NCBI RefSeq assembly: GCF_025340265.1
Contig: NZ_CP022708.1
Coordinates: 62,001 to 126,000 of the forward strand
DNA from: Novosphingobium sp. 9
GTDB taxonomy: Bacteria; Pseudomonadota; Alphaproteobacteria; Sphingomonadales; Sphingomonadaceae
Direction of reading: 5' to 3'
Length of the DNA: 64,000 nucleotides
The notes below the pieces were generated by a model. That model had not been told where the DNA came from, searched no databases, and saw nothing but the letters and a program-made list of their open reading frames with translations. This document shows, in pieces, positions 14,601 through 21,595 of this stretch (position 1 is the first letter of the stretch; every line of letters starts with the position of its first letter). The translations under genes were made by a program, and so were the position numbers.

Positions 14601-14615
14601 GTTTCCTCGGGAAAC
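14601..14615. promoter_or_regulatory. Candidate partition site 1 (GTTTCC-N3-GGAAAC)
   Basis: GTTTCCTCGGGAAAC is a perfect palindromic pair of GTTTCC arms with a 3-bp centre. It matches the three other copies near parB and repA (18205, 19207, 19606), which have a 4-bp centre. It lies 171 bp upstream of the TorF porin gene and about 1.1 kb before parA. Confidence 0.6.
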
Positions 14616-14771
14616 ATTTTGTCACGTTCGGGCAAAGGCCGGGACACCACCTCCGGATAGGGTGATCCGCGAAGCCGGGAAAAAGACCTCGCCACATCAA
14701 GCGCGACGGCGCCGGCTTCCGCAGGGTGGAACCATTTGAACCACCATAAGAACATGAGGGAAATCAACACT

Positions 14772-15593
14772 ATGAAGATGCGTCTTCTCGCCGCCCTGGC
14801 GCTTGCCGGGTGCGCCACTCCCGCCCTTGCGCAGGAAGGCGACACCGCCCCGCCCAAGGACATCACCGTCACCGGCAGCGTTGCCCTCGTCAGCGATTAC
14901 CGTTTCCGCGGCGTCTCGCAGAGCGACAAGGAACTGGCGGTTCAGGGCGGCCTGACCGTCACGCACTCCAGCGGCTTCTATGTCGGCACCTGGGCCTCGA
15001 ACCTTGCCGGATGGGGCACCTTCGGCGGCTCGAACACCGAACTCGATCTGATCGGCGGCTATTCGACCGAGATTTCCTCGGGCACGACAGTCGACGTCGG
15101 CCTGACCTGGTACATGTATCCGGGTGGCGCCAGCAACACCGACTTCGCAGAGCCCTATGTGAAGCTTTCGCACACCCTGGGCCCGGTAAAGGCGCTGGTC
15201 GGCGTGGCCTACGCGCCCAAACAGCAGGCGCTCGGCAACTATTCGGCCACATCCTACAGCCGGGGCCAGAAGGAGGATAACTTCTATATCTGGGGCGATG
15301 CCAGCGCCGGAGTGCCGAACACCGCTCTCAGCGTGAAGGCGCATCTCGGCTATTCGAACGGCAACCCCGGCCTCGGCCCCAACGGCACCAGCGTTGCGCC
15401 TACGGGCGAATATTTCGACTGGCTGCTCGGTGCCGACTACGCGCTCGGCCCGGTCACGCTGGGTGTCGCCTATGTGGACACCAATATCAGCAAATCCGAA
15501 TCGGCGTATCTTCAGCCCAACTTCTCCTCAAGCAAGAACGGCTCCTCGATCGCCGCTTCGCAAGTGGTGTTTTCGGTCTCGGCAGGCTTCTGA
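14772..15593 (+). CDS. TorF-family putative outer-membrane porin
   Basis: A 273-residue beta-barrel protein of the TorF putative porin family (formerly the Gcw_chp conserved protein). The signal peptide ends ALAGCATPALAQ. The family start of the mature chain is visible (VTGSVALVSDYRFRGVSQSDKELAVQGGLT), as are WASNLAGWGTFGGSNTELDLIGGY and a C-terminus ending in Phe (VVFSVSAGF), the usual signal for barrel assembly. The ATG at 14772 has an AGGGAA ribosome site; a further in-frame ATG lies 36 bp upstream. Transported substrate is unknown. A strong terminator follows, so it is monocistronic. Confidence 0.85.
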   Translation: MKMRLLAALALAGCATPALAQEGDTAPPKDITVTGSVALVSDYRFRGVSQSDKELAVQGGLTVTHSSGFYVGTWASNLAGWGTFGGSNTELDLIGGYSTEISSGTTVDVGLTWYMYPGGASNTDFAEPYVKLSHTLGPVKALVGVAYAPKQQALGNYSATSYSRGQKEDNFYIWGDASAGVPNTALSVKAHLGYSNGNPGLGPNGTSVAPTGEYFDWLLGADYALGPVTLGVAYVDTNISKSESAYLQPNFSSSKNGSSIAASQVVFSVSAGF

Positions 15594-15617
15594 ACCCCAA
15601 TCTGCTGAGATCGATTC

Positions 15618-15657
15618 GGCCCGTCTCGACAGTTGTCGAGGCGGGCCTTTGCTTTTT
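15618..15657 (+). terminator. Intrinsic terminator of the TorF porin gene
   Basis: A 13-bp stem (15618-15630 with 15635-15647, one G-T pair) and an AGTT loop are followed by TTTGCTTTTT. This is a textbook rho-independent terminator between the porin and parA. Confidence 0.9.
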
Positions 15658-15746
15658 CTGATGATAGAGTTCTGCGGGGTGCTGGACTGAATATCTTTAA
15701 GCGCATATGAACTTAAAGACGTTCAACGAAACGGGCTACCCCTTCG

Positions 15747-16939
15747 ATGCATTCAGAAGTCGAGCGCATTGCCGAAATGGCACAGGCGGGCGAGCGCATG
15801 ATCGAGCGCCTGCGCCGTCAGGCTTTCCTGCCCGAATCGCGCAAGGGCCTCAATATCCGCTTCGGCATTGCCGAAGCCGCTGCCTTGCTGGGCTGCTCGA
15901 CGAATCGCATCCGCATGGCGGAGGACGATGGGCGCCTTCCCCGCCCCGCCCCACCGAGAACGGCCGCCGTCCGGGATATTCGGTGGAAGACCTGCTGAAT
16001 ATGCGCGACGTGCTCGGCGCCTCGCCGGCACGGGCTCCGCTCGACAATCCCGCGCTGATCGCCGTGCAGAACTTCAAGGGCGGTGTCGGCAAATCCACGG
16101 TCACCACGCACCTTGCGCATTACTTTGCCGTGCAGGGCTATCGCGTGCTGGTCGTCGACTGCGACAGTCAGGCGACGACGACGACCCTGTTCGGTTTCAA
16201 TCCGCACTTCAACATCACGCGCGAACAGACGCTCTATCCCTATCTCTCGATCGACCCGACTCAGACCGACCTGCTCTATGCCGTGCAGAAGACGCCATGG
16301 CCGAACGTCGATCTGATTCCCTCGAACCTCGAACTGTTCGATGTCGAGTATGAACTGGCAGCCAGTGGCGCGGATGGCGGCTCCGTGCTCGCCTCGCGCT
16401 TCCGCAAGCTCAAGCAGGGCCTGCACGATCTGGCGCGCAACTACGATGTCGTGATTCTCGATCCGCCGCCAGCCTTGGGCACCATCAGCCTGGCCGTGAT
16501 GCAGGCGGCCAACGCCCTTATCGTGCCGCTGGCCGCCACGACGCCCGATTTCTGCTCGACCGTGCAGTTCCTCTCGATGATGGATCAGGTCACGAGCCAG
16601 CTCGCGCAGGCAGGCATCTCGGTCGATTACGATTTCGTGCGCCTGCTGTGCTCGAAGTTCGATTCCAACGATCCCAGCCATGCCATGGTCCGCCAGATCA
16701 TGGAACAGACCTTCGGCCCGGCCCTCCTGCCCGTTCCGATTCTGGAAAGCGCCGAGATCAGCCATGCCGCCTTGCGGATGATGACGGTCTACGAACTGGA
16801 AAAACCCATCGGTACGCCGCGCACCCACAAGCGCTGCCGCGCCAACCTCGATGAAGCGATGGCGCAGGTCGAAGCGCTTGTGCGTCGGGGCTGGGGCATT
16901 GCCGAACCCGCCAGCGAGCAGGACGTGATCAATGCCTGA
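15747..16939 (+). pseudogene. parA: ParA-type partition ATPase, frameshifted near 15945
   Basis: The Walker-type ATPase that drives segregation of this replicon. The N-terminus reads from the ATG at 15747 and includes a helix-turn-helix (FGIAEAAALLGCSTNRIRMAEDDGRLP), as in large type-Ia ParAs that also autoregulate. The frame then breaks in the C-rich run 15939-15952 and resumes one base off with PTENGRRPGYSVEDLL. The ATPase part is intact: deviant Walker A KGGVGKST at about 16078-16098, VVDCDSQATTT, and VILDPPPALG. Repaired length is about 397 residues. parB follows 97 bp downstream and repA after that. Because loss of ParA should destabilise a large low-copy replicon, a sequencing deletion is the likely explanation. 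Confidence 0.88.
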
Positions 16940-16978
16940 CGGCGGCCCAACGCCCCTTTATGTTCTCTGTATGTACCC

Positions 16979-16994
16979 CGACATTTCGGGAACG
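16979..16994 (+). promoter_or_regulatory. Iteron-like site in the parA-parB gap
   Basis: CGACATTTCGGGAACG matches the origin iterons at 20747 and 20825 at 14 and 15 of 16 positions. It sits 43 bp before the parB start. It may let RepA, or another protein that binds these repeats, adjust parB-repA expression. Confidence 0.55.
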
Positions 16995-17036
16995 GACCAT
17001 GGCGTCCGCCGAAGCCGCACCGGGAGGAACTGACCG

Positions 17037-18173
17037 ATGGCCCGCAAACAGTCCGACTATCTCGCCAGCCTCCTTGCCGAAGAAGCGACTGCCGCGTCAC
17101 AGAGCGCGATCTCTGCCGATGCTCCCATCGCAAGCGCTCAGGCGAAGTCCGAAGAAGCGTCAGCGCCGGTAACGACGCCACAGGCCGACGCGCCGGCCCC
17201 CTCCCCTGCCCCGCGCGCGTCCGCGCGGGCCGGTCTGTCCTTGCTCGGCCGCGAAAATGCCCTTGCCCGTGTTGCCAGCGGCGAAGTTCGCCAGGTTACA
17301 CAACTGCTGCTCGACCCTGCCCGCGTGCGGGTGTGGGAAGGCAACGCGCGTATCCAGTCGAAGCTTTCGGAAGAAAGCTGCCGCGATCTGATCGATTCGA
17401 TTCTCGCCGAGGGTGGCCAGCGCGTGGCCGCCGTCGTGCGGCACATCAGTGGCGATCCCGATCACGATTACGAACTGATCGCCGGCAGTCGGCGCCATTT
17501 CGCCATTTCCTGGCTTCGGGCGCATTCCTATCCGGACATGCGGCTGCTTGCGCAAGTCGCTGATCTAGATGACGAATCTGCCTTTCGTCTCGCTGACATC
17601 GAGAACCGGGCGCGCAAGGATATCTCGGATATCGAGCGCGCGCGCAATTATGCCGATGCCATCCAGCGCCACTACGGCGGCCGCGCCGTGCGGATGGCCG
17701 AACGCCTCAAGCTCTCGAAGGGCTGGCTTTCCAAGATGCTCAAGGCGGCGACGATTCCGGACACGATCCTGATCGCCTTCGCCGATCTTCACGAACTGAC
17801 GCTCAATCCCGCCTATCGGCTCGCGCAGGCCATCGACGATCCGGTGCGCGCCAAGGCCATCCGTCGCGAGGCCGAGGCTATCGCCGCCGAGAACATCAAG
17901 GCGCTCTCTTCGGGCGCGCTTGCCCTGCCCGGCTCGGCAGCGCTTGCCCGCCTGATGGCGGCAACGGGCTCGCCCGGTCGCCCGCGCGAACAGGGTTTCG
18001 CCTTCGACGTGAACAACGCGCATGGCCGCCCGATCCTGTCCCTGAAGTCGGTCAACCGCCAGGGCCTGACGCTGCATGTGCCGATGGCCAGCGGCGCCGG
18101 CGACGAGCAACTGGCCGATGCCTTGCGACAGGTCCTCGCGACGCTGCGGGACAACGGGATTTCGGTGGTCTGA
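17037..18173 (+). CDS. parB: ParB-family centromere-binding protein
   Basis: A 378-residue ParB/Spo0J-type protein, probably a CTP-dependent DNA clamp that loads at centromere sites. After an Ala/Pro-rich N-terminal tail of about 65 residues (where ParB usually contacts ParA), the CTP-binding fold contains ELIAGSRRHFAI, with the arginine patch GSRRH at residues 150-154. The helix-turn-helix follows (VRMAERLKLSKGWLSKMLKAATIP, about residues 216-239). The C-terminal part probably mediates dimerisation. The ATG at 17037 has a GGAGGAAC ribosome site. repA begins 82 bp after its stop, and a GTTTCC-N4-GGAAAC palindrome lies between them. Confidence 0.92.
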   Translation: MARKQSDYLASLLAEEATAASQSAISADAPIASAQAKSEEASAPVTTPQADAPAPSPAPRASARAGLSLLGRENALARVASGEVRQVTQLLLDPARVRVWEGNARIQSKLSEESCRDLIDSILAEGGQRVAAVVRHISGDPDHDYELIAGSRRHFAISWLRAHSYPDMRLLAQVADLDDESAFRLADIENRARKDISDIERARNYADAIQRHYGGRAVRMAERLKLSKGWLSKMLKAATIPDTILIAFADLHELTLNPAYRLAQAIDDPVRAKAIRREAEAIAAENIKALSSGALALPGSAALARLMAATGSPGRPREQGFAFDVNNAHGRPILSLKSVNRQGLTLHVPMASGAGDEQLADALRQVLATLRDNGISVV

Positions 18174-18204
18174 TGGTCAAAACCGGGGGCGCGCCAATCG
18201 GAAA

Positions 18205-18220
18205 GTTTCCTCCAGGAAAC
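18205..18220. promoter_or_regulatory. Candidate partition site 2 (GTTTCCTCCAGGAAAC)
   Basis: A 16-bp site with perfect GTTTCC/GGAAAC arms around TCCA. It lies in the 82-bp gap between parB and repA, where a bound ParB could also affect repA expression. Confidence 0.65.
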
Positions 18221-18255
18221 ATCATCGCCTTTCATGTGCCGGAGGGCGTGCGGCG

Positions 18256-19506
18256 ATGAGTCCTGTCCGCGAACCCGCCGTCGCCAGCGAAAAGTTCGAC
18301 CTGTTCCTGCCCTATGTGGCGGACATGGCCCTGCGCGATCAGCGCGAGATGATGGAACGGCCGTTCTTCAGTCTGGCGAAGTCGAAACGCATCAAGGCGA
18401 TCGACTACACCAGTCCCGATGGCGAAGTGCATGTCCATGTCTCCGCCAATCCTGACTACGGGATGGCGACGATCTGGGATGCCGACATCCTGATCTACTG
18501 CGCCAGCGTTCTGGCCGACATGGCGCGGCGCGGGCGCAACGACCTTCCCCGCACGCTGCACATCATGCCCTACGATCTGCTTCGGGCCATCGGCCGTCCC
18601 ACCACCGGGCGCGCCTATGAGCTGCTGGGGCAGGCACTGGACCGCCTCGTCGCAACGACCATCAAGACGAACATTCGTGCCGACAACAGGCGAGAGGCTA
18701 CCTTCTCGTGGCTCGATGGCTGGACCCAGTTGGTCGACGAGCGCACCGAGCGTTCGCGCGGCATGACGCTGGAGCTGTCCAACTGGTTCTGGGAAGGCGT
18801 GACGATGAAGGGCGGCGTGCTGTCCATCGATCGCGCCTACTTCGACATCACCGGCGGGCGGGAACGCTGGCTCTACAGGGTCGCCCGCAAGCATGCCGGT
18901 GGCGCGGGCGAGAACGGCTTTGCCATCTCGATGCCCGTTCTGTTCGAAAAGTCGGGCGCCGAAGGCCAGTACCGCCGCTTCAAGTTCGAGATGCTCAAGC
19001 TCGCCGAAAAGGACGAGCTTCCCGGCTATGCCCTGTCGGTCGAAACGGCACGGGACGGCGAGCCGATGATCCGCATGCGGCGCCTTGACGGCAAAGGCGG
19101 CGCGGAAGGCCCCCTGCTCTCGCACAAGACACCGTCTGCGCGGTCCACGCCCTCCCCTGCCCCCGATCCGGGTCCGGCAGCCGATCGTCGCCCCGCTTCT
19201 GTAAAAGTTTCCCCGAGGAAACCGCAGAATTCTGCGCCGCAGCCTGCCGACGTGGTCGATGCCCGAGCGCTTATTCGCTCCACGGTTGCCGGTCTTTCGG
19301 ACGCAGCGACACGCGGTTTCATGACCGACGAAACCATCAACCTCCTGCGCCGGGAATGTCCGGGGTGGGACCTGCATGCGCTCCATGCCGAGTTCGAGCG
19401 CTGGATCAATGCCGACGTCGAACGCGTGCCCGCAGACTGGCAGCGCGCGTTCATCGGATGGGTTCGCCGCCACCACGCGAGAAACGGCCACCAACTGCGC
19501 GGGTGA
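18256..19506 (+). CDS. repA: Replication initiator protein A (RPA family)
   Basis: A 416-residue initiator of the RPA family common on sphingomonad and other alphaproteobacterial plasmids. The N-terminal two thirds carry the family blocks KFDLFLPYVADMALRDQREMMERPFFSLAKSKR, YDLLRAIGRPTTGRAYELLGQALDRLVATTI and LSNWFWEGVTMKGGVLSIDRAYFDITGGRERWLYRVARKHAG, which form winged-helix DNA-binding domains. A Pro/Ser-rich linker (about 300-330) joins a C-terminal helical region (LRRECPGWDLHALHAEFERWI). The ATG at 18256 starts directly before the conserved block. It is third in a parA-parB-repA order, and the iteron array 1.2 kb downstream is the likely binding target. A GTTTCC palindrome lies inside the linker-coding DNA. 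Confidence 0.93.
   Translation: MSPVREPAVASEKFDLFLPYVADMALRDQREMMERPFFSLAKSKRIKAIDYTSPDGEVHVHVSANPDYGMATIWDADILIYCASVLADMARRGRNDLPRTLHIMPYDLLRAIGRPTTGRAYELLGQALDRLVATTIKTNIRADNRREATFSWLDGWTQLVDERTERSRGMTLELSNWFWEGVTMKGGVLSIDRAYFDITGGRERWLYRVARKHAGGAGENGFAISMPVLFEKSGAEGQYRRFKFEMLKLAEKDELPGYALSVETARDGEPMIRMRRLDGKGGAEGPLLSHKTPSARSTPSPAPDPGPAADRRPASVKVSPRKPQNSAPQPADVVDARALIRSTVAGLSDAATRGFMTDETINLLRRECPGWDLHALHAEFERWINADVERVPADWQRAFIGWVRRHHARNGHQLRG
19207..19222. promoter_or_regulatory. Candidate partition site 3 (inside repA)
   Basis: GTTTCCCCGAGGAAAC has perfect 6-bp arms around CCGA. It is in the part of repA that encodes the flexible linker, where sequence constraint from the protein is low. 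Confidence 0.6.
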
Positions 19507-19605
19507 TCGGCGCCCCCTTCCCCGCTTCCGTACAACGCTAACGCCGATCTTTCCCCGTTATGGAAAGGTCGGCGCGCCCCCTTTTTCTCTGTGCAGAACG
19601 TTCCG

Positions 19606-19621
19606 CTTTCCCGCAGGAAAC
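19606..19621. promoter_or_regulatory. Candidate partition site 4 (one mismatch)
   Basis: CTTTCCCGCAGGAAAC keeps the N4-spaced arms with one mismatch in the left arm. It lies 100 bp after the repA stop. Confidence 0.5.
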
Positions 19622-20295: not shown

Positions 20296-20335
20296 GGGCA
20301 GGGCAGGGCAGGGCAGGGCAGGGCAGGGCAGGGCG
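20296..20335 (+). repeat. GGGCA pentamer tandem repeat
   Basis: Seven perfect GGGCA units followed by GGGCG. The + strand has eight runs of three G with two-base spacers, a pattern able to form a stable G-quadruplex. It lies about 400 bp before the iterons in the putative origin. Confidence 0.9.
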
Positions 20336-21166: not shown

Positions 21167-21595
21167 ATGACCGACATTCCAACAGAACATCTCGTGGAGG
21201 AACTGCTCCGCTCCATCGGTACCCTACGCCGCCGCTTACGGGCGGAAACCAATCCTGACGAGCTTACGCTATCCCAGATTTCCGCGCTTATCCGCCTGCA
21301 CAAGCAAGGACTTGCAACAACCGCCGACCTTGCCAGGCTGGAAGGCGTCAAGCCGCAGTCGATGGGCTCCACTCTCGGCAGCCTCGAAAAGCTTGGTCTC
21401 GTGATCCGTTCGGCAGATCCCAACGACGCCCGCCAGATGCTTTACGAACTGACGGCCGAGGGTATTGCCGCCCGCGAACAGCAGCGACTGCTAAAGCGGG
21501 CCTGGCTGGGGCAGGCGGTGTCCCGGCTGACCGAGGAAGAGAAGGATGCGCTGGGCATCGCACTCGATGTGTTCAACCGGATCGCGAAGAGCTGA
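21167..21595 (+). CDS. MarR-family transcriptional regulator
   Basis: A 142-residue winged-helix regulator. The DNA-binding core is LSQISALIRLHKQGLATTADLARLEGVKPQSMGSTLGSLEKLGLVIRSADPNDARQMLYELTAEG, with the wing residues DPNDAR matching the MarR D-x-R-D-x-R pattern. Flanking helices would form the dimer. An ATG at 21167 was preferred over an upstream TTG at 21131, because the latter lies inside the palindromic operator. The MFS transporter gene starts 2 bp after its stop. The likely role is a ligand-released repressor of that transporter and of itself. Confidence 0.9.
   Translation: MTDIPTEHLVEELLRSIGTLRRRLRAETNPDELTLSQISALIRLHKQGLATTADLARLEGVKPQSMGSTLGSLEKLGLVIRSADPNDARQMLYELTAEGIAAREQQRLLKRAWLGQAVSRLTEEEKDALGIALDVFNRIAKS

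Follow-up and report, generated by a model that had tools for sequence, protein, structure and literature searches.

Do palindromes clustered around a set of partition and replication genes form the centromere of the replicon that carries them? The question is raised by the stretch of DNA analyzed here (the window, 64,000 nucleotides), in which a first-pass annotation described four copies of a palindrome with GTTTCC and GGAAAC arms around parA, parB, and repA and proposed them as a new centromere site for the local ParB. The source genome consists of two contigs totaling 4.39 Mb (C1, 3,001,897 bp; C2, 1,385,075 bp), and the window (C2:62001-126000) lies on the 1.39-Mb second replicon.

Four palindromes at one par-rep locus

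Family profile searches recognized a response regulator gene, a Gcw_chp gene, parA, parB, and repA in the region (Table 1). The parA ORF scored 246.8 bits against TIGR03453, under the cutoff of 348.45, and its homology is clear from about 15989 on. An N-terminal ParA part of 83 residues (15747-15998) is encoded in a different frame from the remaining ORF, in a C-rich stretch (15707-16100); the frame of parA appears to be broken near its start by a frameshift or an assembly error. The window ParB matched ParB_N (PF02195) weakly (22.0 bits; cutoff, 26.3) and belongs to the ParB/RepB/Spo0J superfamily by TIGR00180 (89.0 bits; cutoff, 58.45). A PF10134 initiator adjoins parAB, as expected of an RPA replicon, and a ParA Walker ATPase, a ParB, and a palindromic site stand together in one locus, as in ParABS systems. 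We also observed AGGGC tandem repeats at 20300-20334, about 0.8 kb past repA and with no obvious gene there, which are possibly part of the origin.

Table 1. Palindromes and par-rep genes of the window
Feature	Position	Strand	Description
Copy 1	14601..14615		GTTTCC-TCG-GGAAAC, 15 bp, 3-bp center; perfect arms
parA-like ORF	15707..16939	+	Walker ATPase; AAA_31, 1.8e-33
parB	17037..18173	+	SopB-type helix-turn-helix (HTH); PF18090, 1.7e-24
Copy 2	18205..18220		GTTTCCTCCAGGAAAC; perfect arms; just after parB; both half-sites T type; left flank AAA
repA	18256..19506	+	RPA-family replication initiator; PF10134, 6.5e-65
Copy 3	19207..19222		GTTTCCCCGAGGAAAC; perfect arms; in variable repA linker, read V-S-P-R-K; one T-type and one C-type half-site
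Copy 4	19606..19621		CTTTCCCGCAGGAAAC; one mismatch; about 100 bp after repA; one good (matching) half-site

Our search for GTTTCCN{2,6}GGAAAC in the window agreed with the positions first described, yielding exactly three perfect matches (14601-14615, 18205-18220, and 19207-19222), a number reached by 0 of 100 dinucleotide shuffles, along with the one-mismatch copy at 19606. The coordinates likewise place one copy between parB and repA (18205) and one in the repA linker (19207), as described. The claim that no other copy occurs in the 64 kb held at up to one mismatch, but with up to two arm mismatches a single further 16-bp match appears at 21234; window counts at this threshold are weak, with 3 of 100 shuffles reaching four. 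Similarly, the AAAG reported to the left of the copies is common to copies 1 to 3 but not to copy 4.

Genome-wide, perfect arms with a 2- to 6-bp center occur at four places, these being the three window copies and C2:595161, where the 15-mer of copy 1 lies on the opposite strand within a long ORF that we take to be a GGDEF/EAL-type gene. The 16-bp form with at most one mismatch occurs at three places in the genome among matches listed by mismatch order, all in the par-rep locus, and copy 4 is the sole one-mismatch place beyond the two perfect ones. At up to two mismatches, the genome has 112 places versus 77 for a reversed control. Base composition predicts 0.002 occurrences per spacing in the window and 0.14 in the genome. 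In 47 of 100 Markov-shuffled windows, however, some six-base arm (gap 3-4) recurred at least three times. Because mere threefold recurrence of an arm is not unusual, significance attaches to this specific arm of mixed composition and to its restriction to the locus. These analyses confirm that the palindromes are real and that the 16-bp form is confined to one par-rep locus. The whole-genome search that the first-pass annotation had called for thus placed the 16-bp form (up to one mismatch) at this locus only, and the even spread over the genome that it had named as evidence against its proposal was not seen in the source genome.

The palindrome recurs beside related parB genes

For an unbiased search, we took 80 of 200 loci encoding a ParB relative, added the window, and scored all palindromes with 6-bp arms and gaps of 0 to 8 over these 81 loci. 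GTTTCC-N4-GGAAAC ranked first, with 189 copies in 77 of the 81 loci, compared with 33 loci for the best unrelated palindrome. Chance or compositional recurrence of palindromes, which the Markov-shuffled windows could be taken to favor, runs counter to this result and to the genome-wide confinement; we consider it extremely improbable as an explanation and contradicted where copies 2 and 3 are concerned, although it may still account for copy 1. Exact copies numbered zero in 4 loci, one in 7, two in 40, three in 21, four in 6, and five in 3. Nearly all exact sites (185 of 189) begin 0 to +1499 bp from the point where the ParB alignment ends, which falls a median of 5 codons before the stop; the other 4 lie 2 to 3 kb upstream of that end, and none of the 189 was elsewhere in the locus flanks (up to 8 kb). 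Most lie directly behind parB, and repA frequently contains more. Of the four loci without an exact motif, L163, L192, and L219 have CTTTC[C/T]TCGA-type palindromes at the equivalent place, and in L169 the sequence reaches just 29 bp past the ParB alignment; genome G005, with a contig of equal length, carries the sites at the opposite end of that contig.

The repA match contains forty copies, of which 39 share one frame and encode VSPGK-like or VSSRK-like peptides; the 40 sites were picked by the exact motif, so that codon conservation is not independent of motif choice. The repA linker around the sites is poorly conserved in an alignment of seven RepAs. Retention of these sites for the sake of the peptide is unlikely, since the peptide varies by subtype (VSPGK and VSSRK).

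The palindromes might instead be only ParB-bound operators regulating parAB or repA, with no centromere. ParB-type proteins can act as regulators, and the first site, between parB and repA, could govern repA. Yet the site closest to parB follows parAB rather than preceding it, repA often contains another site, and 70 of the 81 loci carry 2 to 5 exact copies. Multiple copies downstream of parAB and inside repA fit nucleation of a partition complex. We therefore regard a purely regulatory function as improbable, although operator and centromere roles can coexist.

We also examined 149 genomes of the same genus, each at least 90% complete. Exact GTTTCCCCGGGGAAAC was present in 42 of 44 genomes with a 54 to 63% identical ParB and in 8 of 93 with neither ParB class, 13 candidates having been scored per genome (Fisher p about 1e-24 for 42/44 versus 8/93). 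It was present in none of the 12 whose ParB reaches 67% identity or more, which is the subtype of the window (G000 included). The two misses among the 44, G111 and G082, have CTGG-centered sites at the locus. The eight exceptions with an exact motif (G003, G009, G045, G058, G064, G071, G146, and G163) count against a parS reading, although their ParB may have been missed with 13 candidates scored per genome. This test and that of the 81 loci are not independent because the sets overlap.

Association of the motif with ParB and not RepA

Two of the sites flank or sit in repA, and most near-clade loci also have an RPA-type repA, as would be expected if the palindromes were RepA operators or origin elements such as iterons or sites of repA autoregulation. 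We scanned twenty plasmid loci and seven others for palindromes. The motif was absent from all four loci (L016 and L238-L240) with RepA 60 to 65% identical (about 270 to 310 aligned residues) but ParB only 35 to 38% identical, and GTAAAAC..GTTTTAC palindromes lie between parB and repA instead. In L238-L240, this palindrome was seen again about 2 kb on. The motif was likewise absent from L235 and L236 (RepA 50 to 55% identical, with other partition genes) and from L237, L241, and L242 (RepA 42 to 43%, ParB 38 to 44%). L237 and L241 carry TCCCACGCGTGGGA; no palindrome stood out in a search of L242, which counts against the parS reading. Conversely, L204, L162, and L153 keep the motif with an unlike or undetected RepA. 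This exchange of ParB and RepA among loci, together with the presence of the covarying residues in ParB (see below), led us to reject a RepA operator or iteron, which we consider highly improbable.

Other ParB branches were associated with different sites. A clade of 42 to 43% identity (L013, L014, and L230-L232) has AATTGCACGCGTGCAATT-type palindromes around parA and parB; and L015 and L233 (ParB 38 to 42%) have GTTGCCACGTGGCAAC. Near-clade ParBs of Croceicoccus, Haematobacter, and Asticcacaulis accompany the motif or a close form; Swingsia and Komagataeibacter have TTTCCCCGGGGAAA with variable outer bases. Several ParB branches therefore seemingly have palindromes of their own. Since loci with a similar RepA and another ParB have another palindrome, the comparison indicates that the motif tracks ParB, not RepA, and points to the palindromic site as the cognate of the local ParB in the ParABS sense.

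Covariation of two ParB residues with site bases

Among 88 ParBs (the 81 loci and seven plasmid loci), base 7 of the site was C with 64 and T with 21, and 3 were without a site in the pattern used. With K at residue 257 (67 ParBs), base 7 was C in 328 of 332 half-sites; with N (18 ParBs) it was T in 72 of 76, and with A (3 ParBs) in 12 of 12, or 84 of 88 for N and A together. With K at residue 228 (82 ParBs), base 1 was G in 388 of 392 half-sites, compared with 3 of 22 for E (5 ParBs), where C occurred in 16, and 3 of 6 for P (1 ParB). K228 and N257 of the window ParB are thus predicted specificity residues. Passages of PMC7383237 describe ParB/Noc specificity as set by residues 173, which reads base 1, and 201, which reads base 6. 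In a phmmer alignment, residue 228 pairs with Caulobacter ParB residue 173 and 257 with 201, using a numbering offset of 10 derived from conserved residues named in those passages. Base 7 here corresponds to base 6 there counted from the center because each half-site here has an additional base pair.

The T type requires at least two changes on the tree, one for an 18-row clade with the window and one for three Asticcacaulis rows. That the base-7 switch has only two tree origins and that many further alignment columns also separate T and C types both count against the parS reading, and the covariation p-values are descriptive because related rows are not independent.

The window ParB is of the GTTTCCTCGAGGAAAC subtype, nested among GTTTCCCCGGGGAAAC relatives. 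In T-type sites, the G is preferentially preceded by A (0.77 at -1, 0.89 at -2), and in C-type sites by T (0.71 at -1); the preference of T-type sites for A upstream of the G explains the AAAG noticed to the left of the copies. Because the window ParB has K228 and N257, its predicted ideal site is GTTTCCTCGAGGAAAC with AA-rich flanks.

Assignment of the four copies and proposed mechanism

Comparative support for a centromere of the local ParB, as first proposed, was strong for 18205 and 19207 and tolerable for 19606, but did not extend to 14601. Copies 2 and 3 are very probably parS sites for the neighboring ParB, and copy 4 is likely a weak predicted parS. We would expect strength to decrease in the order 18205, 19207, and 19606; copies 3 and 4 depart from the ideal site of the predicted subtype, which counts against the parS reading. 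The 15-bp form of copy 1, with its 3-bp center, was absent from all 80 other ParB loci, and we set this copy aside as unsupported. It lies beyond parA plus one further gene, and its AT-rich flanks resemble those of L256, a dispersed copy in a relative. This doubtful copy is possibly a decayed or unrelated hairpin. The lost base suggested by the first-pass annotation may account for its 3-bp center, but the same 15-mer recurs within the ORF at C2:595161.

Considering these findings together, we assign a probability of roughly 0.9 to the reading that copies 2 and 3, with copy 4 as a weak member, constitute the parS centromere of a parA-parB-parS-repA replicon. This assignment is built from sequence comparison: the sites themselves, their confinement, their fixed place beside one ParB clade, and the residue-base covariation. 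By analogy with established ParABS systems, a ParB dimer would bind the 16-bp two-fold site via its SopB-type HTH, bound ParB would load in a CTP-dependent manner and then spread, and ParA would move the resulting complex and thereby deliver the chromid to each daughter cell. In many sphingomonads, second chromosomes and large plasmids are among the RPA replicons. Our results propose a centromere for one large ParB clade and a specificity rule of two residues, which residue swaps could test. Incompatibility between such replicons would become predictable.

Dispersed copies in relatives

The expected confinement of the motif to one replicon breaks down in some relatives, where copies occur on chromid and chromosome. 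The placement on replicons comes from G106, G120, and G149, genomes of two to four contigs as opposed to drafts, in which copies occur on the parB-bearing replicon as well as the largest contig. In G149, chromosomal copies lie at C1 502305 and 3382982; the matching ParB of N. aromaticivorans DSM 12444 is SARO_RS18825, and the sites of its own locus lie at 209.7-210.8 kb of pNL2. Five C-type genomes, chosen for high site counts and split into locus and dispersed sites by our own tally, contain 71 sites. Of these, 23 belong to the locus, and the 48 dispersed ones comprise 39 CCGG, 0 TCGA, and 9 other centers. Eleven T-type genomes besides G000 contain 49 sites, again with 23 belonging to the locus; the 26 dispersed ones comprise 14 TCGA (all in G088, G110, and G080), 0 CCGG, and 12 other. 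G111 has CTGG at the locus and in both of its dispersed copies. In some genomes of the genus, dispersed copies therefore share the subtype of their own genome's centromere. Misfits are G009 (L123-L128), G003 (L129-L131), and G018 (L132-L137), which carry the 16-mer or a close form with no near-clade ParB detected.

Two dispersed sites are orthologous among genomes. The first, seen in seven genomes (L334, L344, L347, L353, L361, L384, and L386; pNL2 155542), is flanked by a VOC gene and an NTF2-like gene next to dioxygenase genes; its center is CCGG in five, CCAG in G111, and CCAA in G082, and it is on the parB-bearing contig in five of the seven. The second, in an EthD-domain gene by pNL2 annotation (292398), occurs in six genomes. 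Around both, flanks drift while the arms stay. In some genomes, GAACN7GAAC-like repeats adjoin the VOC/NTF2-like site. An apparent T/C switch at one orthologous position (L378 versus L344) was unconvincing, as the flanks do not align.

Some dispersed copies lie just after a gene whose end we take to be that of etfA. Six (L126, L128, L299, L311, L306, and L310) form the core of longer hairpins, with flanks that differ yet stay complementary (TGTTGGA.., TGTAGGA.., TTGGAGT..). We rejected terminators as an explanation for dispersed copies, as only some have a T run. The T-type copies L373 and L382 seemingly fall within coding sequence, and protein constraint may partly explain them.

Most simply, the dispersed sites would be bound by the chromid ParB, and their role could be Noc-like occlusion, gene regulation, or chromosome-chromid coordination, all of which are possible. 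The dispersed copies hint at a cross-replicon, Noc-like role. Contacts in trans that link chromosome origins with those of large replicons are reported (PMC13342612 and PMC9239152), and in Agrobacterium they are ParB mediated. We see about even odds for a broader reading, in which the second-replicon ParB of part of the genus would work across replicons, so that a plasmid-type partition protein would serve a network that is Noc-like or coordinates replicons. It would bind a few conserved 16-bp sites on chromid and chromosome that coevolve with its specificity, and the window genome would have lost, or never gained, the dispersed sites. If this is true, the dispersed co-switching sites would make chromosome-chromid coordination directly testable in Novosphingobium aromaticivorans DSM 12444.

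Comparison with known partition systems

Like SopB of plasmid F, the window ParB has a SopB-type HTH (PF18090), and solved SopB chains are among its profile matches. The F site is a 16-bp palindrome, as is the site in the window, but its sequence differs, and F has a tandem 43-bp array that the window locus lacks. The window ParB scored 65.6 bits against NF010252, which we take from the name of a sister model to be the SopB-type equivalog, well under the cutoff of 274.

The parS of repABC replicons, given as GTTNNCNGCNGNNAAC in passages of PMC9040568, resembles the window site in its 16-bp length, GTT/AAC ends, C6 and G11, and position beside par-rep genes; the same passages mention further copies away from the operon in rare cases. 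In contrast, the centers of copies 2 and 3 are CC or CG, whereas that of repABC parS is GC. The GC-centered form GTTNNNNGCNNNNAAC did not fit, as a GC center is found in copy 4 alone and that copy begins with C. The initiator of the window locus is RPA rather than RepC, and the window ParB fell under the RepB cutoff (TIGR03454, 57.4 bits; cutoff, 201.5).

A literature search by sequence, covering the 16-mer GTTTCCCCGGGGAAAC, did not find it, nor did titles or abstract openings in the literature searched describe the palindromic site. Clusters of parA/parB/parS are named in Novosphingobium sp. PP1Y (PMC4059872), and passages of that paper and of PMC4041236 give no site sequence. The proposed parS cluster was thus not found in the literature searched and is well supported by comparison.

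With regard to Noc, the window ParB scored 38.6 bits against TIGR04285 (cutoff, 315), and sites dispersed over the chromosome were not found in the source genome, although dispersed copies in some of its relatives recall Noc NBS sites. The canonical chromosomal parS GTTTCACGTGAAAC was rejected as a candidate, having no exact match in the genome; the window lacks it even when two mismatches are allowed. At its chromosomal parAB locus (L006 50-65 and 412-427), the source genome carries TGTTCCACGTGAAACA and TGTTCCACGTGGAACA, and the two replicons therefore appear to use distinct sites. The first-pass annotation rightly noted that the palindromes differ from chromosomal parS yet keep its GTTTC design; TGTTCCACGTGGAACA-like sites lie at chromosomal parAB. 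The window site is one base pair longer per half-site than chromosomal parS and NBS, but it shares with them the GTTTC design and, as judged from passages of PMC7383237, the same two specificity positions in the protein.
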